Source of the DNA: Desulfocapsaceae bacterium | Lineage (GTDB): Bacteria > Desulfobacterota > Desulfobulbia > Desulfobulbales > Desulfocapsaceae | Direction of reading: 5' to 3' | Length of the DNA: 64,000 bases | Assembly: GCA_031292275.1 (NCBI GenBank) | Contig: JARLHL010000074.1 | Span: 1-64,000, forward strand | In this document: positions 35,009 to 45,954 of the stretch, one piece after another | How positions within the stretch are numbered: position 1 is the stretch's first letter | Layout of the letters: each line of letters starts with the position of its first letter | Notes under the pieces: generated by a model | What the model was told of the DNA's origin: nothing | The model's input: the letters and a program-made list of their open reading frames with translations, nothing else | Database searches by the model: none | Translations under genes and position numbers: made by a program

Positions 35009-35578
35009 CTATCTATTCAGCTCAAGAATAAAGGGTAAAATCTCTTTAAATTGAGGTGTTCCTGCCCTGCCCAGGAGTTCATAGATGATCATCTCGGCAG
35101 GGCCGATCGCCGCCCCAGCGGTCCGCAAGGCAGCCAGCCCCAGTTCGTGGTGCTCAGGATACCTCGCCGAGGTGCCATCGGCGACAATCCACGGGGTAAG
35201 CCCGCGTCCCAGATACCCGATTGCCGTCTGATAAACGCAGATATGGGTCTCCACTCCGACGATAATCATGGTATTGACGGTTAGAGGGAGCCCATCAACC
35301 AGCAAACAGGTTTCAGGATTGGCCAGCGCACCGAATTCAGTCTTATCCGGCCTCGGAAGACCCTCCATCAACACCTCGAGTTCAGCGACATAGCCGCCCA
35401 GTCCTTTTTTGTACTGGGTATTGGCAATAACAGGAATATTCAGAATCTTGGCCCCGGCAAGCATGAACTTGATAACCTTGACAACACGCTCTGCCTGATG
35501 AATATGGGCCATCAGGCTCTGTTGCGGATCTATGATATGGAGGCAGCATTCTGCAGGTGTCAGTAGTTTTTTCTTCAT
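35009..35578 (-). CDS. cysteine hydrolase of the isochorismatase family
   Basis: A 189-residue isochorismatase/nicotinamidase-fold hydrolase. The catalytic triad is visible: Asp in LHIIDPQQSLM, Lys in RPDKTEFGAL and Cys in VGVETHICVYQTA. The substrate cannot be told from sequence; it lacks the obvious metal-site pattern of nicotinamidases. The ATG at 35578 (MKKKLLTPAEC) is preferred because GGAG lies seven bases upstream; the frame extends 12 residues further. Confidence 0.9.
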   Translation of the reverse strand: MKKKLLTPAECCLHIIDPQQSLMAHIHQAERVVKVIKFMLAGAKILNIPVIANTQYKKGLGGYVAELEVLMEGLPRPDKTEFGALANPETCLLVDGLPLTVNTMIIVGVETHICVYQTAIGYLGRGLTPWIVADGTSARYPEHHELGLAALRTAGAAIGPAEMIIYELLGRAGTPQFKEILPFILELNR

Positions 35579-35852
35579 ATATGCTCCAAATATGCATTGA
35601 TGATGGCGGTCCAAAGCATAGTGCCCGGTTCCACATCATTCTTATCCTGATTGTTGAGAGGAAATGAATACCCTCCTCAAGCTTTTCACAATTAACCCCT
35701 TTTCCATACTGTATTCAAGCGTGAAACCGCCTTTTCCCTTTTTTTGCCTCATTGTTCCGTCTTCCCCTGCAGGAAAAACATCGCCGAAAAATCACTTTAC
35801 AACTGACAAGCAGGAATTACAGTATTCACTAAAATAAGCATATGGAGGTTCT

Positions 35853-36929: not shown

Positions 36930-39900
36930 CTATATCGGCAGGATATGCGTCTCCTCCTGGATCGGGTGTACCCCCATGAGGAGAAGGCCGTTGCGGCCAT
37001 CTATCGACACCTGATCGCCAAAACGGATGGTCTTGTTGCCGATCTGGCAATACTGGCCGGTCTCGTAGACTTTCAGATGCTTGCAGCCAACGACACAGGT
37101 CTTCTCCAGGCGCACCGCCACAACCGAGGCATGAGAGGTCTGCCCGCCCCTCGAGGTAATCAGCCCGTCGGCCATGTCTATCACCTTGATATCCTCAGGC
37201 ACGGTATCCTGTCTAAAGAGAATGAGCGGGGTATTCGGCTCAGACCGCCGCAGATCTCTGATATTGCTCTCTGAAAAGACCGCCTTGCCGGCCATGGCAG
37301 AGCCTGAGACCCCGACACCTTTACCCAGGATATCCCGGTTCAGGCCTTCGGTCTCGACAAAGACATGGAGATGCTCTTTTTTCTTTATGGTTATCATATC
37401 GCGGGTCTGCAGCAGGAACAACTTATCCGGCGTGGGGCCCTCGAAGGTGAACTCCATCTCTTGCGGATTCCAGTTATTCTCATAAACAAGGTCCCGCGAT
37501 ATGGAGAGAAGCCGCTCATAAATGGCGGGAAATCGCCGTTCCAGGGTCTCATCCACAGCCCTGCCGTCCAACTCCGCCTGCTCGACGGAAACGGCGAAAC
37601 TGGTAACCAGTCCCGAAACAATGTCCTCACCCTGATCCCCGTAGGCATAATCTCCCCAGAGGGCCACCCGGGAGACCTTGCGATAGGGATGGGCGGTAAA
37701 AAGGACCCCGGCCCCGGCATCATCGGAGCAGTTGCCGAAGACCATGGCCTGAACGATGACGGCGGTTCCCCAGGCGTCGGACACATCCATGATCTTCCTG
37801 TAATCCGAGGCCTTAAAGGTATCCCAGGAATCCAGAACCATCTCGATGGCGTTCACCAGTTGCAGCCAGGGATCGTCAGGAATGCCGTAGCCGCGTTTTC
37901 GGATCAGTTTCTGATAAGAAAGGGCCAGTTCCTTCATCTGCTCAGGAGAAAATTCCCTTTTAAGATTCACATGATACTTAGCCTTGGCCTTGTTCATCAA
38001 TTCCTGAAAATCTTCCCGCTGCATCCCTGAGATCATGGCCCAGGACTGCAGGAACCGACGATAATTGTCCCAGGAAAGATAGGCATTCCCGTGCTCCTGG
38101 ACATACTCCTCGATCAGTTCCTCATTCATGCCGACATTGTGAATGGTTGCCATCATGCCGGGCATGGAGATCGCCCCGCCGCTGCGGACCGAGACCAGAA
38201 GTGGCCGGTCCGGGGACCCATAGACCTTGCCGGTCATCTCCTCGATTTCCGAGAGCGAGGCCCGGATCCGCCGCATGAATTCATCCCGGGCCTTGGAGAA
38301 ACCAAAGACAACCTCCCGGCAGCGAAAAACCTCAGTAGTGATAATAAAAGCCGGCGGAACAGGTTTCTTATCGGCTGCGAGCACCATCAGGTTGTAGCCC
38401 TTGTTGCCAAGATGGATCAGATCATTGGTAAAGGGGTTGATGTGGTGCAGGGAGGAAATTGCCTTTTCGGGATTATAGGTCATCAGCAGGTCAAGCCTTT
38501 GCTTATCCAGAATATCCTTTTGATTCTCAAGGGTTTGAATAATCCTGACGATGAAATTATCCAGATGCTGCAACCCGAAGGTCGAGGAGATCAGATCGCG
38601 GAAAAACGACTCCGAAAGACGATGGATCGTATTGATCATATCGTCTCCATTCCATTGGGACCGGTATTTGGTCACCAGATCCGCCGGATTGATCTGGGGA
38701 ATGATGATCGACAGATTGTTTTGGTGGATATTGGTGTAAAAGGCATAGATGATGTCCTTCACTCCCTCTGACAATCCCCGGAAGATATCCAGGTACTGCG
38801 TATAGGAAAAGCGCCTGACTTTCAATGAGTTTATCAGCAGGGACATATGGATATCGAGACGCCTTGAGGTAATCCCGTCGATCCGCAGGGCCTGCAGAAA
38901 GAGCTTCAGGCATTTGACGATCCGGAAAAAGGTCGCCTGGGTGATAAAGGACAGATTGACAGTTTCCGGCAGCTTCTCCAGATAGATATTAGCTAGATTT
39001 TCGAGCCTGAATGTCAGACTCAGACTGTCGAATTTCCTTTCCCGGTACCTGCCGTAAACGGAGGGGATATCGACTGCGATATGCCTCTTGTAATAGATAT
39101 CCTCCCGGGCCTGAAAATGCTCTGGGGAGAGGATTGTCTCCTTAAGCCCCTCCAAGGTCTTCAACAGGGCCTCGAGACAGCCGATAGTACCGCAGACCTC
39201 AAGGTCGGCCAGGAGGTGTTCCATCTCCGGAAACCCCTCTTGTGATGCCTGGAGCAGTTCCGTCCGCAACTCTTGAAACCCGAGATTGTATTTCCTATGG
39301 AGGAGCTTGAACATCTGTACCAGCAACTCAAAGCGGCGGAGTTCCAGAGGATCAAGATCTGTCTGGAGGACGAGAAACGCCTTCAGGTCCTCACTGTCCC
39401 AGTCAAGGATATCCTGCATGCTGTGAAAATTCAGCTGGCCGATGATCCGTTGCGCTAGGCAATGCTGCACATCGACGAACGCCCCTTCCTCAGCCACCTG
39501 ATTATAGACCTCCTCCGGCAGAAAGGGCAGGAGGATGGTCTTATCCCTGGTCTTCCAGAAAAGGAAGATGGCCTTGATAAAATCGACGATCAGATTGGAG
39601 CTCTCGACATGACTCTGCTTCCGTAGAAAATGGATGAGGAGATCCTTGCGCTTGTACATCTCGTCCAGCTCTGTCGAGACATCGCGTAATTCGCCTTCCG
39701 CGCCGATCTCGTTGAAGAATACCGGCATCAGCTTGGTAAACTGTTTGGCCAGATTATAGATAGGCTTAATAGGATGATTCAGGAGCTCAGTGATATCCCG
39801 CTGGAAAAGATCGGTATCCTTGACACAGGTGCCGGTCAGTTTAAGATTGATAATCAGGGCGGAAAACAGCGTTGAACACCATTTGGGCTCTTGTTCAATC

Positions 39901-41201
39901 AGGGTCAGCCAGACCCGGATATTGTTCAAATGCGCCGGGTTGGTCAACGGCTGCCAATCCTCATCCACGCCCACGACCTTGGCATACTGAAAACCGAAGC
40001 GGACTACGCCCCAGAGAAAGGCCTCAACCATCCGGCTGTTGCCGCGGTTAAAGACTTCACCGCCTAGGACCTGGATACACTGGAGAGACGTGTGGGGGTA
40101 CTTATTGACGTTGGCCTTGAGGAGCTGAAAGGTCATGAGCAGAAACTGTTCGATCTCCTCGAAGCTCTGCTGCCTGATCAGCTGAACCAGGCTGCGGTTG
40201 ATCTCTCTCAGTGTCTCTTCATGGATGAGGTAGAGGCCTTTAGTATCCATGATTTTGAAGAGGAAGAGCAGCTTCTGGTTTTCAACAAAGGGATTGCCTG
40301 TATCGCCCTGCCCTTCCTCAGTGGACTCGGCATCGGACTCTGCCAGTTTTTCAGGTATCTCCTTGTAGAACCGGACGATGTCAACGTGGGCGGGCAACTC
40401 GAGAATATGAGCCAGTCCTGCCGGCGGATCAGATTCCAGATCCAGTCCCATCAGAATATCCCTGCTCCGTGATATGGAGTCGTGCGAAATCAAGTTGAAG
40501 AGCTTACCGAAACGAAAATCAGTGCAGAGAATGCCGCATTTCTCCAGAAACCAGGGCATGGGATCATCTTCTTTGAGCCAGTACTCGTAATTTTTGAGCA
40601 GGATGGCACGCATCAGATAGGCGATTGGACGATAATCAAAATCGATAGGCCGGGGGCTATTTGCAGCAAGCAGGCGACTCGCCACCCGCTTCATCGGATG
40701 CTGGCCCTGCACGATCTGCATCAGGGTTGAGGTATCGACCTTTTCCAGGTCACGGATCTGGGTAAAAATTCGGTTTAACGGTTGTTCAAACCGCCGCAGT
40801 TCATTCCCCTCCAGAAAGCTGATGGTCTTTTCTAACCAGGCTATCTTCGCCTCGATAATCAGGGCCAGGAGGGTGGCATTCTTCTCCGAATCCCTGATGG
40901 CCTCGAAAAACAGCTGCCCGAACAGCTCGATGGCCTGCGGCCCGTCGGCATGGCGGACAAAATAGCCACTGTTTTTCAGCACAAAACTCCTAAAAACAGG
41001 CAGGATCAGACTCCAGTTTCTAAACGGATGGCAGATTTCATAAAGCAGGCTCTCAAGACTCGAGTACAGTCCTTTATATTTTTTCATCATCTCGAGCAGA
41101 AGCAGAAGCTCCGGACGGATGACGACATGCTCAGCGGTCTCGATGAGATTTGCCCTCAAGGCATCCGACTCGATTATTGGAGAGGACGTTTTCGTATCCA
41201 T
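36930..41201 (-). CDS. PPDK-related ATP/phosphohistidine protein with ~900-residue unknown N-terminus
   Basis: A 1423-residue protein. From about residue 925 it matches the ATP-binding domain of pyruvate phosphate dikinase: HLGNKGYNLMVLA, VRSGGAISMPGMMATIHNVG, WGTAVIVQAMVFGN and FLLQTRD. A swivelling phosphohistidine domain follows with the catalytic His at about 1357 (SRGGQTSHASVV). The protein then ends, so the PEP/pyruvate-binding barrel is absent. Residues 1-900 appear helical and charged and match nothing I recognise. It could phosphorylate a partner or a substrate bound by the N-terminal half. It is a single open frame downstream of gap and glgA on the same strand. Confidence 0.88.
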   Translation of the reverse strand: MDTKTSSPIIESDALRANLIETAEHVVIRPELLLLLEMMKKYKGLYSSLESLLYEICHPFRNWSLILPVFRSFVLKNSGYFVRHADGPQAIELFGQLFFEAIRDSEKNATLLALIIEAKIAWLEKTISFLEGNELRRFEQPLNRIFTQIRDLEKVDTSTLMQIVQGQHPMKRVASRLLAANSPRPIDFDYRPIAYLMRAILLKNYEYWLKEDDPMPWFLEKCGILCTDFRFGKLFNLISHDSISRSRDILMGLDLESDPPAGLAHILELPAHVDIVRFYKEIPEKLAESDAESTEEGQGDTGNPFVENQKLLFLFKIMDTKGLYLIHEETLREINRSLVQLIRQQSFEEIEQFLLMTFQLLKANVNKYPHTSLQCIQVLGGEVFNRGNSRMVEAFLWGVVRFGFQYAKVVGVDEDWQPLTNPAHLNNIRVWLTLIEQEPKWCSTLFSALIINLKLTGTCVKDTDLFQRDITELLNHPIKPIYNLAKQFTKLMPVFFNEIGAEGELRDVSTELDEMYKRKDLLIHFLRKQSHVESSNLIVDFIKAIFLFWKTRDKTILLPFLPEEVYNQVAEEGAFVDVQHCLAQRIIGQLNFHSMQDILDWDSEDLKAFLVLQTDLDPLELRRFELLVQMFKLLHRKYNLGFQELRTELLQASQEGFPEMEHLLADLEVCGTIGCLEALLKTLEGLKETILSPEHFQAREDIYYKRHIAVDIPSVYGRYRERKFDSLSLTFRLENLANIYLEKLPETVNLSFITQATFFRIVKCLKLFLQALRIDGITSRRLDIHMSLLINSLKVRRFSYTQYLDIFRGLSEGVKDIIYAFYTNIHQNNLSIIIPQINPADLVTKYRSQWNGDDMINTIHRLSESFFRDLISSTFGLQHLDNFIVRIIQTLENQKDILDKQRLDLLMTYNPEKAISSLHHINPFTNDLIHLGNKGYNLMVLAADKKPVPPAFIITTEVFRCREVVFGFSKARDEFMRRIRASLSEIEEMTGKVYGSPDRPLLVSVRSGGAISMPGMMATIHNVGMNEELIEEYVQEHGNAYLSWDNYRRFLQSWAMISGMQREDFQELMNKAKAKYHVNLKREFSPEQMKELALSYQKLIRKRGYGIPDDPWLQLVNAIEMVLDSWDTFKASDYRKIMDVSDAWGTAVIVQAMVFGNCSDDAGAGVLFTAHPYRKVSRVALWGDYAYGDQGEDIVSGLVTSFAVSVEQAELDGRAVDETLERRFPAIYERLLSISRDLVYENNWNPQEMEFTFEGPTPDKLFLLQTRDMITIKKKEHLHVFVETEGLNRDILGKGVGVSGSAMAGKAVFSESNIRDLRRSEPNTPLILFRQDTVPEDIKVIDMADGLITSRGGQTSHASVVAVRLEKTCVVGCKHLKVYETGQYCQIGNKTIRFGDQVSIDGRNGLLLMGVHPIQEETHILPI

Positions 41202-41305: not shown

Positions 41306-42310
41306 TCAGAGAGGCCTGTTCGCATCCATATGACAGATCAGGTCGAGCATACGGTTTGAATATCCCCACTCATTGTCATACCAGGTCATGATCTTCACCG
41401 TCGTGCCGATCACCTTGGTTGATTTGGCATCAATGACTGAGGAGTGATTGTCGCCCTGGAAATCGATGGAAACCAGAGGCAGATCCGTATAGCCGAGATA
41501 GCGGTTGGCTGCCTCCTTCAGGGCCTGATTAACCTCCTCTACGCTCGTCTCCTTCTCGACTTCCATAACGGCATCGACCAGTGAGACATTGGGGGTCGGT
41601 ACCCGGACGGCCAACCCGTCAAATTTTCCTTTTAACTCAGGGATAACGAGCGAGACAGCTGCTGCCGCCCCGGTCTTGGTAGGGATCATCGACAGTCCGG
41701 CAGCGCGGGCCCTGCGCAGATCGGAATGCGGGAAATCGAGGAGTCGCTGATCCCCGGTATAGGAGTGGATGGTGGTCATCAGGCCGCGTTTAATGCCAAA
41801 ATTATCGAGAATCACCTTGGCCATGGGGGCCAGGCAATTCGTCGTGCAGGAGGCGTTGGAGACGATATGATGCAGCGTAGCGTCATACTCATCTTCATTG
41901 ACGCCCATGACAAAGGTCTTCACATCCCCTTTGGCCGGGGCTGAGATCACCACTTTTTTGGCACCTGCATCGATATGTCCGTGGGCAGACTGGTTATCAA
42001 GAAAGAAGCCGGTACATTCTGCCACATAATCGACCCCCATGCTGCCCCAGGGGATATCGGCAGGGTTCCTGTGGCTGGTCACGGCAATGTGACGCCCATC
42101 CACCAGGACACCACGCTCATCGCTCTCCACCTCTCCTGCGAAAGGCCCCATCACGGAATCATATTTCAAGAGATGGGCCAGGGTCGCAGTATCGGTCAGA
42201 TCGTTGATGGCAACAATCTCAATGTCTTTAAAGAGTGCATCTTTGCTTGCAGCCCGGAATATATTTCTGCCAATCCGCCCAAAACCATTTATACCAATCC
42301 TGATCGTCAT
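41306..42310 (-). CDS. gap: glyceraldehyde-3-phosphate dehydrogenase, type I
   Basis: NAD-dependent glycolytic/gluconeogenic enzyme, 334 residues. The Rossmann start TIRIGINGFGRIGRNIFRAA, the active-site Cys in SNASCTTNCLAP and the C-terminal WYDNEWGYSNRM are all present. The ATG at 42310 follows GGAGG by six bases; a TTG two codons upstream is unlikely. It lies 43 bp after glgA on the same strand. Confidence 0.98.
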   Translation of the reverse strand: MTIRIGINGFGRIGRNIFRAASKDALFKDIEIVAINDLTDTATLAHLLKYDSVMGPFAGEVESDERGVLVDGRHIAVTSHRNPADIPWGSMGVDYVAECTGFFLDNQSAHGHIDAGAKKVVISAPAKGDVKTFVMGVNEDEYDATLHHIVSNASCTTNCLAPMAKVILDNFGIKRGLMTTIHSYTGDQRLLDFPHSDLRRARAAGLSMIPTKTGAAAAVSLVIPELKGKFDGLAVRVPTPNVSLVDAVMEVEKETSVEEVNQALKEAANRYLGYTDLPLVSIDFQGDNHSSVIDAKSTKVIGTTVKIMTWYDNEWGYSNRMLDLICHMDANRPL

Positions 42311-42352
42311 ACCCAACCTCCTTTTCGCTCTCTGATAAGAGACAAAATGCTG

Positions 42353-43969
42353 TCACATCAATTCTTGTCTCGCCTTTTTATAAAGCTGCAGATACTGTTT
42401 CATCACCTTGTCCCACGTGTGATTTTCCCGAATCTGCGTGACTGAATCCCTCTGCATTCTCCGCACACACTCCGGACTTGCATAACAAGCCATGGCCCGG
42501 GCTATCGCCTTTACCATATCCTCCCTGCTGTTCGTCTTGTAGGTAAAACCCGTCTTCCCATCCAGGACCTTGACCAGGCCGCCGACAGAGTGAACAATGG
42601 GTATATTGCCGAAAAGCTGGGCTATATAATCCGTTAATCCACAAGGCTCATACCGGGAAGGAATGAGAAAGAAATCCCCGGCAGCATAGAGCTGATTGGC
42701 CGTAGCCGGACTGAATCCCCGTAAAAAACAGACCCGCCCCCTGTTCCCCCGCTGCTCGGCCAGGGCAATCATCTGGTCTTCTTCCCAGGCCCCTCCGCTC
42801 CCGAGCAGCGCAACCCGGAAGTCCTCGTGATGATGGAGCATATAACGGATGGAGCTGATCAGGATATCGACACCCTTCTGCTGATTCAACCGCCCGATGA
42901 ACGTGAAGAGCGGCTTGTCCGGATCAGCATTCAGATGACCGAACTGCCTCACTTCAGGGAGTATCCCATTTCCTGAAAGTTTTTGCAAGATTGATATCTT
43001 ACAATTTCTTTTCCCCCCAACATCCTGATCGTCCAGTGGATCATAACCGGCAGCAATCCCGGTTTTTTCCGGCCGGCGGGAATCAAAATCGGCGGGGTCG
43101 ATACCGTTGGTCACCCCCTGCAGCACGATCCCCATTTCCGCCAGACGATGACCAAGCCAGCCGGTCAGATGATCATCATGGGTTTCCTGCAGTTCCCTGG
43201 CATAATTTTCACTCACCGTGTTCAAAACCGCATAACGGCCGGCGACGATCAAGGGATCAAAATTTTCTCCAAGACGATTTTCAAGAATGGTCTCCCTGGA
43301 CAGGCCGGTAATTTCCCGGGCAAAGGGCAGATCCGCCACATCCTGGTGGTATCCGGTGCCGGCATTATGGATGGTGACGATCAGACCGGTTCCCCGAAAA
43401 TAATGTCTGAAGCCGTCGATTTCCCGAATCATGGCGGGCAGGATGGCAGTATGACCGTCATGGCAATGGATAATGTCGGGGCGTTCATGCAGAAGCTGCA
43501 TGAGGGCAAGGGCGCCCTTCTGCAGCAGGACGTTCATCGCAAAATAGTCGACATGCCCCATTCCCTGTTTTTTCCACGGTTCCGGCCCCTCCTCTGCAGG
43601 GGTATAGGTATAGACATCGGCCTTTTCCCGAAATCGCTGAGCCTCCAAAAGATAGACATTCATCCGGTTGATCTTCTTATGCCATACTCCAAACGTCTCC
43701 TGACGTTCAACGTCGGTGTAGTTCATGGTAACGGCAAACTCGAGGTTCACTCCCGGCTGCAGAGGATCCTGCAGCGGCTCAAAACCCTGGTCAACTGCCT
43801 GGATCAACCCGTAGCGCGGCATAACCACGCTGACAGACCGTCCGTTCCAGCGCGCCAGGGTGCATGCCAGCTGTTTGACCACGTCCTTGACACCACCGGC
43901 TCCGGCCAGACCCGCATATTCCCTGGTCAGCATCCAGATATTTTTTATGGATCCCTGATCTTTAATCAT
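42353..43969 (-). CDS. glgA: glycogen/starch synthase (GT5 family)
   Basis: A 538-residue glucosyltransferase that elongates alpha-1,4-glucan from a nucleotide-glucose. The C-terminal half has the GT5 blocks FIGRLNQQKGVDIL, PSRYEPCGLTDYIAQLFGN and VGGLVKV. The N-terminal donor site is unusual: where classical GlgA has K-T-G-G-L-x-D-V, this protein reads G-A-G-G-V-K-D-V, so the lysine that contacts ADP-glucose is replaced. This occurs in a diverged GT5 branch and may mean a different donor. The start overlaps the aroC stop by four bases. Confidence 0.9.
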   Translation of the reverse strand: MIKDQGSIKNIWMLTREYAGLAGAGGVKDVVKQLACTLARWNGRSVSVVMPRYGLIQAVDQGFEPLQDPLQPGVNLEFAVTMNYTDVERQETFGVWHKKINRMNVYLLEAQRFREKADVYTYTPAEEGPEPWKKQGMGHVDYFAMNVLLQKGALALMQLLHERPDIIHCHDGHTAILPAMIREIDGFRHYFRGTGLIVTIHNAGTGYHQDVADLPFAREITGLSRETILENRLGENFDPLIVAGRYAVLNTVSENYARELQETHDDHLTGWLGHRLAEMGIVLQGVTNGIDPADFDSRRPEKTGIAAGYDPLDDQDVGGKRNCKISILQKLSGNGILPEVRQFGHLNADPDKPLFTFIGRLNQQKGVDILISSIRYMLHHHEDFRVALLGSGGAWEEDQMIALAEQRGNRGRVCFLRGFSPATANQLYAAGDFFLIPSRYEPCGLTDYIAQLFGNIPIVHSVGGLVKVLDGKTGFTYKTNSREDMVKAIARAMACYASPECVRRMQRDSVTQIRENHTWDKVMKQYLQLYKKARQELM

Positions 43970-45054
43970 ATCCAGGCCTGCATATTTCTTCTGACCGCCA
44001 TATCACGAAGCAGAAAGTCGGCCAACGTCAGACGGACCATAGCCTCGCAGACCGGGATTATCCGGGGGATGGCCGAGATATCATGACGACCGCCGACACG
44101 AATCGCCACCTCTTCGTTGGCCAGGTTAACGGTTTTTTGTTCTCTGGAAATGGAAGGAATGGGTTTTACCGCCACCCTGATCACTACCTCCTCCCCGTTG
44201 GATATACCTGCAAGCATCCCCCCTGCATTATTTCCTAAAAACCCGCCCGGACCGATTGCATCATTATTTTCAGAGCCAAGCATATCAGCGACGGCAAAGC
44301 CGGCCCCGATCTCAACACCCTTGACCGCACCGATGGACATCAGCGCATGGGCAAGGCTCGCATCAAGCTTATCGAATACCGGCTCTCCAAGGCCTTCAGG
44401 GCATGTGGCCCTGATTTCCACAATCCCTCCCAGGGTGTCGCCCTGGGCATGGACCTCACTGACACGCGCCTCCATCTGCCGGGCCGCCACCGGATCGGGG
44501 CAGAAAAAACGGTTATCCAGGATAGTCGAGAGATCACAGGTCCGGATACGAACCCCTCCCAGAGCCAGGGTATAGGCGCAAACCTCTATTCCATGCCTCT
44601 TCAGAAGCTGTTTGGCAATTGCCCCCGCCGCCACCCGTGCCGCTGTCTCTCTGGCAGAGGCCCTGCCGCCGCCGCGGTGATCCCTGATGCCGTATTTGGC
44701 CAGATAGGTTTTATCACCGTGTCCCGGCCTGAAAATCTCCCGAAGATCATCATAGGACTTCGAGTGAGCATCTTTATTGAATATGGCAAGAGAAATCGGT
44801 GTACCGGTGGTTCTCGGCATTTCTTCACCCTGGGGCGTGAAGATCCCCGACAGAATCTCCACCCGGTCAGGCTCCTTGCGCGGGCTCGAAGCCCCACCCT
44901 GTCCGGGCCTCCGACGAGCCATCTCGCGATTGATATCCTCCTGATCAATAAGGAGCCCCGGAGGACATCCGTCAATAACTGCTCCGATTGCAGTCCCGTG
45001 CGATTCCCCCCAGGTGGTCACCTTGAATGCCTCGCCAAATGTGTTCCCCGCCAT
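43966..45054 (-). CDS. aroC: chorismate synthase
   Basis: Last step of the shikimate pathway, FMN-dependent, 362 residues. It has the N-terminal FGEAFKVTTWGESHG, the three signature regions (GQGGASSPRKEPD; YLAKYGIRDHRGGGRASARE; GGMLAGISNGE) and the C-terminal RVGGRHDISAIPRI. It lies 12 bp downstream of aroK and overlaps glgA by four bases. Confidence 0.98.
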   Translation of the reverse strand: MAGNTFGEAFKVTTWGESHGTAIGAVIDGCPPGLLIDQEDINREMARRRPGQGGASSPRKEPDRVEILSGIFTPQGEEMPRTTGTPISLAIFNKDAHSKSYDDLREIFRPGHGDKTYLAKYGIRDHRGGGRASARETAARVAAGAIAKQLLKRHGIEVCAYTLALGGVRIRTCDLSTILDNRFFCPDPVAARQMEARVSEVHAQGDTLGGIVEIRATCPEGLGEPVFDKLDASLAHALMSIGAVKGVEIGAGFAVADMLGSENNDAIGPGGFLGNNAGGMLAGISNGEEVVIRVAVKPIPSISREQKTVNLANEEVAIRVGGRHDISAIPRIIPVCEAMVRLTLADFLLRDMAVRRNMQAWI

Positions 45055-45597: not shown

Positions 45598-45954
45598 ATT
45601 ATTTTGACGTCAATTGAGACCGGAATGCATATGTTTTGTCAATCCGATGGATGTACAGCCGTACAGCAGCACCTTGTCTGCCCATGGACAGAAAGGCAAT
45701 TCCGGAGAGTTGGTGATCGGCAGTTTGTGTATAAAAAAAGGGAAGGCCTTGAACTCTTGTCATTATTCCCTGTTCAATAAGTAATTGTATACGGTAAAAT
45801 GAGGATGTCAAGATAGGATATTTGCTGATTTTGGAAACGATTTCCTCATTTTCACTCCCGTCAGAGATACGCTTTGTAATCCGGCGGATATATCCTGCGA
45901 CAGATCGCAAGGAGATATGCCGCCCCTCTCACAGCAAGGAGCCCCGCTGAGCCG
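45598..45954. other. non-coding region between aroK and cbpA (divergent)
   Basis: About 357 bp between two divergent genes. Short frames on both strands have no ribosome-binding site and no recognisable sequence. It should contain the aroK and cbpA promoters; I cannot place them with confidence. Confidence 0.4.

Follow-up and report, generated by a model that had tools for sequence, protein, structure and literature searches.

A PPDK-type dikinase with a long N-terminal unit of no recognised family and a divergent GAPDH as its genomic partner

Analysis of a 64,000-nucleotide stretch of DNA from a Desulfocapsaceae bacterium (GenBank assembly GCA_031292275.1, contig JARLHL010000074.1, positions 1 to 64,000; hereafter, the window) led us to a 1423-residue relative of pyruvate, phosphate dikinase (PPDK), which we denote PPDKL, for PPDK-like protein. 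The open reading frame at positions 36930-41201 was confirmed as a real gene on the minus strand. Its product joins the ATP-grasp and phosphohistidine domains of PPDK to a long, conserved N-terminal unit, and across two bacterial phyla the gene occurs in nearly the same genomes as the gene for a second, divergent glyceraldehyde-3-phosphate dehydrogenase (GAPDH), which we denote GAPDH-2. The explanation that we favor, with a probability of roughly 0.45, is that PPDKL is a PPDK-type dikinase with a new acceptor unit that acts at the triose-phosphate node and works with GAPDH-2, with a metabolite of that node as the most likely acceptor. The gene and its parts are listed below (residue n begins at position 41201-3(n-1)).

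36930..41201, minus strand: PPDKL, 1423 amino acids
40302..41201, minus strand: N-terminal part, residues 1-300, helical, weakly conserved, solenoid-like in the model
38427..40301, minus strand: helical core, residues 301-925, conserved, proposed acceptor-binding unit, no family match
39555..39995, minus strand: conservation hot spot, residues 403-549, with W416, N421, H424, N427, R429, D462, D464, E502, R506, D513, E514, R527, K528, H531 and E533
39042..39107, minus strand: principal beta hairpin in the model of the N-terminus, residues 699-720, with invariant KRH (705-707), P713, S714, Y716 and Y719; the tip has a low predicted local distance difference test score (pLDDT)
37398..38411, minus strand: PPDK-type ATP-grasp nucleotide-binding domain, residues 931-1268, with K934, R1006, R1049, E1192, D1193, E1250, Q1265 and R1267
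36954..37337, minus strand: swivelling phosphohistidine domain, residues 1289-1416, from Pfam, phmmer and structure matches
37131..37133, minus strand: His1357, the predicted phosphorylated histidine, equivalent to PPDK His455 in the alignment

Only the last third of PPDKL contains Pfam domains, namely PPDK_N (residues 974-1212, E 2e-26) and the phosphohistidine domain PEP-utilizers (residues 1325-1405, E 2e-17), and the same scan did not find the PEP-utilizers_C barrel (PF02896) that accommodates phosphoenolpyruvate (PEP) or pyruvate. With phmmer, residues 931-1416 align to residues 18-513 of the 873-residue PPDK of C. symbiosum (1kbl; E 2e-71), and because the PPDKL chain ends at residue 1423, a few residues past the histidine domain, the 360 C-terminal residues of PPDK that make up the PEP/pyruvate barrel have no counterpart. 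PPDKL thus has the layout of the swivel-domain dikinase superfamily (PPDK/PEPS/RPH/HpeHI), that is, an ATP-grasp domain and a swivelling phosphohistidine domain. His1357, which pairs with PPDK His455, is invariant in 95/95 non-redundant orthologs, and so is T1355 of the same TSH motif. Also invariant in these 95 sequences are the equivalents of PPDK K22, R92, G101, M103, R135, D280, E323, Q335, R337, T453 and H455; the position of E279 is occupied by E or D, and that of D321 nearly always by E (near the end of the ATP domain, where the phmmer alignment slips, residues were paired by motif). In PPDK, the residues checked serve ATP/phosphate (Pi) chemistry and phosphorylation of the histidine. 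The original prediction of a two-domain PPDK engine with an intact catalytic histidine at about 1357 and no PEP/pyruvate domain was therefore borne out by Pfam, phmmer and conservation alike.

The fold of the modelled C-terminus tells the same story. In an AlphaFold2 model of residues 255-1423 (pLDDT 86.5, predicted TM-score (pTM) 0.74), the top structure match of this part is PPDK 1kbl (Z 41.9, root-mean-square deviation (rmsd) 2.5 over 485 residues, 33% identity), the match to 2r82, an entry titled as a second conformational state, being far poorer (rmsd 14.1). At the same time, no NCBIfam model comes near its cut-off with PPDKL: the PPDK model TIGR01828 yields 348 bits (cut-off 843), the PEP synthase models 65-75 bits (cut-offs 598-740) and the rifampin phosphotransferase model 28 bits (cut-off 999). 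Given the conservation of the PPDK residues and the PPDK-like predicted fold, PPDKL very probably functions as an active phosphohistidine transferase, using ATP and Pi and serving an acceptor other than pyruvate.

The remainder of the protein is without precedent in the databases searched. Residues 3-925 matched no Pfam family, and a 93-sequence profile of this region compared with PDB sequences retrieved nothing better than E 0.38, in agreement with the prediction of an approximately 900-residue N-terminus without a known family. A model of residues 3-925 (pLDDT 86.6, pTM 0.76) is helical nearly throughout, with a single beta hairpin at about residues 699-720, the tip of which is uncertain. 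Fold searches produced only generic helical-repeat (HEAT/ARM-like) matches over approximately residues 35-500, with a best Foldseek E of 3.6e-3 and VIA Z scores of up to 10.6 accompanied by large rmsd, as is generic for helical repeats. Neither program detected a known fold, which is weak negative evidence because the 923-residue model was queried whole and not in parts. The N-terminus is not a barrel; because part of it resembles HEAT/ARM repeats at a generic level only, it may or may not be a simple scaffold.

Conservation along the N-terminal unit is markedly uneven, at 0.37-0.55 over residues 1-300, 0.70-0.75 over 401-550 and 0.75 over 701-750, so that residues 403-549 and 699-735 are conserved to the same extent as the catalytic domain. 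R, K, H, W, N, D and E abound among the invariant residues of these patches. By analogy with rifampin phosphotransferase, we read the patches as a putative site of acceptor binding or of docking that includes a mobile loop. The long conserved N-terminus probably carries or binds the acceptor; binding had been suggested as a possibility for this half of the protein. In the 247 Desulfobacterota genomes sampled, the N-terminus is fused to the dikinase in 68/68 genomes, and a profile search with the N-terminus alone recovered the same 68 genomes and no others; therefore, within this phylum sample, it occurs only as part of PPDKL, and the possibility that it is a separable, widespread domain was rejected.

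Orthologs of PPDKL were identified in 58/58 relatives from Desulfobulbales, ranging from the same genus to the order (47/47 when only good-quality genomes are counted), most of them with 60-87% identity, a distribution far beyond chance. In the wider samples from two phyla, the gene is present in 68/247 Desulfobacterota (~28%) and 44/200 Pseudomonadota (~22%), mostly at full length, with ~38-67% identity outside the genus of the window. In a phylogeny of 95 sequences, those from Pseudomonadota group into one clade beside Desulfobulbales, inside the diversity of Desulfobacterota; with a midpoint root and one low support value, transfer could have gone in either direction. None of the plasmid records covered 80% of PPDKL. 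The dsrA gene was found in 60/68 PPDKL genomes vs 62/179 genomes that lack PPDKL, an association that fits a link to sulfur metabolism rich in pyrophosphate (PPi) but may merely reflect ancestry. The orthologs of the relatives are mostly full length and uninterrupted, with a few split by contig ends, frameshifts or stops. Two frames or in-frame stops are seen at G120:C1:682944-687057, G043:C1:59137-63474, G051:C9:32217-36453 and G318:C1:208661-212872 (G and C numbers denote genomes and contigs, and L numbers, below, loci); G120 is a single-contig genome, and these cases could reflect frameshift, assembly error or real decay.

The co-occurrence profile singled out GAPDH-2 as the partner, in a near one-to-one relationship in both phyla. 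Among the Desulfobacterota, 67 genomes encode both proteins, 1 only PPDKL, 2 only GAPDH-2 and 177 neither (Fisher p 6e-57, ancestry ignored), and the exceptions are genomes that are 62-79% complete; the respective counts for Pseudomonadota are 40, 4, 3 and 153 (Fisher p 8e-34, ancestry ignored). Like GAPDH type I, GAPDH-2 (e.g., L085:12274-13518 and G000:C61:77736-78962 (L173)) possesses both Pfam GAPDH domains, the catalytic Cys and His, and the phosphate-site residues. It differs from type I in its length (~420 amino acids vs 335), in being ~33% identical to the window's classical GAPDH and in lacking the NAD-selecting Asp32, and because of this missing residue GAPDH-2 is probably NADP(H)-dependent. 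No GAPDH other than GAPDH-2 was found in G084 and G120, both of them single-contig genomes, or in G279; together with the retained residues, this makes it very probably a working GAPDH. The NCBIfam model TIGR01534 (cut-off 367 bits) gave two members scores of 340 and 331 and also placed that of the window genome below the cut-off, and those of G306 (406) and G314 (390) pass. Apparently, the GAPDH-2 family itself has not been described. The single-contig genome G156 carries gap2-pgk twice with equal scores (C1:505482-507924 and 1777503-1779945), a recent duplication of ~2.4 kb or more, and the GAPDH-2 match at G326:C175:72003-73169 lies in an open frame of 24389 residues that is probably due to a run of N in the contig.

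The genomic context links the two genes as well. In the window, PPDKL follows aroC-glgA-gap on the minus strand:

41306..42316, minus strand: gap (GAPDH-1), adjoining PPDKL upstream, a neighbor kept in three groups
42353..43969, minus strand: glgA (glycogen synthase), a neighbor in Desulfobulbales
43966..45054, minus strand: aroC (chorismate synthase), in the aroC-glgA-gap-PPDKL run
45784..45811, minus strand: sigma-70-like promoter match (11/12, a match to the consensus only) upstream of the aroK?-aroC-glgA-gap-PPDKL run

We compared 39 loci from Desulfobulbales, 40 from other Desulfobacterota and 38 from Pseudomonadota. A gap gene lies directly upstream of PPDKL in 26, 18 and 9 of these loci, respectively, and GAPDH-2 (~420 residues) is represented by 60 copies near PPDKL in the 78 loci outside Desulfobulbales, nearly all directly downstream. 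In many Desulfobacterota, the run goes on into pgk, tpiA and secG, and ahead of it lie lptB, rpoN, hpf, ptsN, rapZ, a gene for a phosphotransferase system (PTS) EIIA protein and rimI (all these genes were named by reading the sequences and not by family search). In Pseudomonadota, the outer neighbors differ, which means that the PPDKL/GAPDH-2 pair is kept in different surroundings. In the window genome, GAPDH-2 resides on another contig in the run gap2-rimI-pgk-tpiA-secG, the type of run that in other lineages carries PPDKL. By contrast, glgA was found near PPDKL in 27/39 Desulfobulbales loci, 1/40 loci from other Desulfobacterota and 0/38 from Pseudomonadota. Hence, of the cluster glgA-gap-PPDKL, only the gap neighbor is conserved across the three groups, and of the two roles suggested from the window alone, the link to lower glycolysis is much strengthened through GAPDH, and a storage-glucan role as a general explanation was rejected, glgA being essentially confined to Desulfobulbales.

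Several other features of these loci were noted. The gap frame of the window is listed with a TTG start, but AGGAGG stands just ahead of an ATG two codons on (42310-42308; region 42308-42316), which probably is the true start. An isochorismatase-domain protein (35009-35614, minus strand) is encoded between alaS and PPDKL, and is a neighbor in some Desulfobulbales loci only. In 16 Pseudomonadota loci (L126:5944-6633 and 15 more), GAPDH-2 is followed by a gene for a protein of ~230 residues without Pfam or NCBIfam matches, possibly a third member of the PPDKL/GAPDH-2 module.

Under the mechanism that we propose, the ATP-grasp domain of PPDKL would use ATP and Pi, as in PPDK, to phosphorylate His1357, with the release of AMP and PPi. 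The histidine domain would then swing away and dock on the N-terminal helical core (approximately residues 400-550 together with the 699-735 hairpin) instead of a C-terminal pyruvate barrel, and the phosphate would pass to an acceptor bound there, or else the reverse run would make ATP from PPi. The acceptor or its product would belong to triose-phosphate or gluconeogenic metabolism and would be handled by GAPDH-2, perhaps in physical partnership with PPDKL. PGK is present in 79/80 PPDKL genomes, and the window genome carries an apparently ordinary PEP synthase, an 836-residue PEP-synthase-like frame that contains the only barrel found there; because both enzymes are present, PPDKL fills neither step, and replacement of PGK by PPDKL was rejected.

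Several considerations weigh against this proposal. The co-occurrence p-values ignore shared ancestry, though the pattern recurs in two phyla; in Desulfobulbales, PPDKL and GAPDH-2 sit in separate operons; gene neighborhood indicates a functional tie but not a substrate; the acceptor is putative, activity is predicted from residues and fold, and the docking site is proposed from conservation; and the helical N-terminus could bind a protein instead. A different scheme is one of regulation: GAPDH-2 (and GAPDH-1) would be held by the helical N-terminus and phosphorylated as a protein by the histidine domain, so that triose-phosphate flux is switched by ATP, AMP, Pi and PPi. The tight pairing with GAPDH proteins, the generic resemblance of part of the N-terminus to protein-binding solenoids and the absence of a metabolic gap, with PGK and (in the window genome) PEP synthase in place, are all compatible with such regulation. 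However, judged by sequence, the conserved N-terminal patches look more like a polar site than like a surface for diffuse docking, four Pseudomonadota genomes have PPDKL without a GAPDH-2 match, and small molecules are the usual substrates of the swivel-domain dikinases known so far (PMC4844700, PMC12167813). We consider this scheme unlikely, a metabolite of the triose-phosphate node being a likelier acceptor than the GAPDH protein itself.

Alternatively, the linkage to GAPDH might reflect shared regulation only, with PPDKL acting on an unrelated small molecule or a polymer, such as glucan. The glgA-gap-PPDKL run of Desulfobulbales would fit this, but the near absence of glgA from the other loci, the failure of Pfam to find a carbohydrate-binding domain in PPDKL and the span of the GAPDH pairing over two phyla make this quite improbable. 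A more specific idea, attractive but unproven, is that PPDKL is a dikinase for 3-phosphoglycerate (or another carboxylate) that feeds a GAPDH: together with GAPDH-2, it would interconvert 3-phosphoglycerate and glyceraldehyde-3-phosphate by means of ATP and Pi or AMP and PPi, in parallel to PGK. An abundance of PPi, as in dissimilatory sulfur metabolism, would make such a reaction worthwhile. The NADP-type features and intact phosphate site of GAPDH-2, the retention of the PPDK-type Pi/PPi residues and the enrichment of dsrA all fit. Nevertheless, PGK is nearly always present, the dsrA association is confounded by ancestry, and we know of no member of the superfamily that makes acyl phosphates, so we regard this two-enzyme module as very doubtful. 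Finally, PPDKL could act as PEP synthase or PPDK with a barrel that a separate protein contributes in trans, given that two-component dikinases such as HpeHI and PpsAB are known (PMC12167813). However, the sole barrel found in the window genome belongs to its own PEP synthase, and 4/33 good-quality relatives lack any barrel match, yet PPDKL is universal among such relatives; PEP synthesis with a barrel in trans was accordingly rejected as scarcely credible.

Comparison with known systems highlights both the familiar and the novel aspects of PPDKL. It shares with PPDK (C. symbiosum 1kbl, TIGR01828) the ATP-grasp and phosphohistidine domains, their order and the residues of the ATP/Pi site and the histidine, but differs in the lack of the C-terminal barrel, the presence of a 925-residue N-terminal helical unit and scores below the family cut-off; the low scores and missing barrel likewise set it apart from PEP synthase. 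Plant alpha-glucan, water dikinase is another large protein in which a long N-terminal acceptor part is combined with a PPDK-type engine, but in that enzyme the ATP domain comes second, behind the histidine domain, the reverse of the PPDKL order, and carbohydrate-binding modules are present, none of which Pfam found in PPDKL. The rifampin phosphotransferase RPH-Lm also consists of ATP-grasp and swivelling histidine domains and an acceptor domain for which structural relatives were likewise lacking and part of which is disordered when substrate is absent; this domain, however, is located between the other two, spans ~430 residues and is partly alpha/beta (PMC4844700), whereas the extra unit of PPDKL is N-terminal and comprises 925 residues. 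Similarly, the phenol-type dikinases HpeHI, CreHI and PpsAB couple a PPDK-type engine to non-pyruvate acceptors, and the ATP-grasp fold is common to them and PPDKL (9goj, Z 17.4), but these systems comprise two chains and act on aromatic substrates (PMC12167813), in contrast to the single chain of PPDKL and its linkage to GAPDH genes. By its defining features, then, PPDKL is not PPDK, PEP synthase, rifampin phosphotransferase or glucan water dikinase. A link to DVU0246 of the Desulfovibrio nitrate cluster was rejected as well: that gene, at 2235 bp, is half the length and encodes a different protein (PMC4001038). In the literature searched, which excluded most subscription papers, we found no description of PPDKL or of a dikinase-GAPDH pair; the engine is known, and the architecture, the N-terminal unit and the partnership with GAPDH-2 were not found described.

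Central carbon metabolism is generally regarded as completely charted. The universal presence of PPDKL, an apparently catalytically intact dikinase, in the sampled Desulfobulbales and its frequency in two phyla, along with a divergent GAPDH of its own, suggest that a reaction or a point of control at the triose-phosphate node has been overlooked in sulfate reducers and many Pseudomonadota; because PPDKL nearly always accompanies the second GAPDH, it may mark a step or control point of this metabolism that has so far escaped notice. PPDKL also adds a new acceptor architecture to the swivelling-histidine enzymes, the substrates of which are described as largely unexplored (PMC4844700), and because the partner GAPDH-2 is known, the question of the acceptor is directly testable. 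Should the module with 3-phosphoglycerate or another carboxylate prove real after all, PPDKL and GAPDH-2 would couple triose-phosphate oxidation or reduction to ATP + Pi / AMP + PPi through a phosphohistidine, and lower glycolysis and gluconeogenesis would contain a previously undescribed site of energy coupling in two phyla of bacteria of the sulfur cycle.

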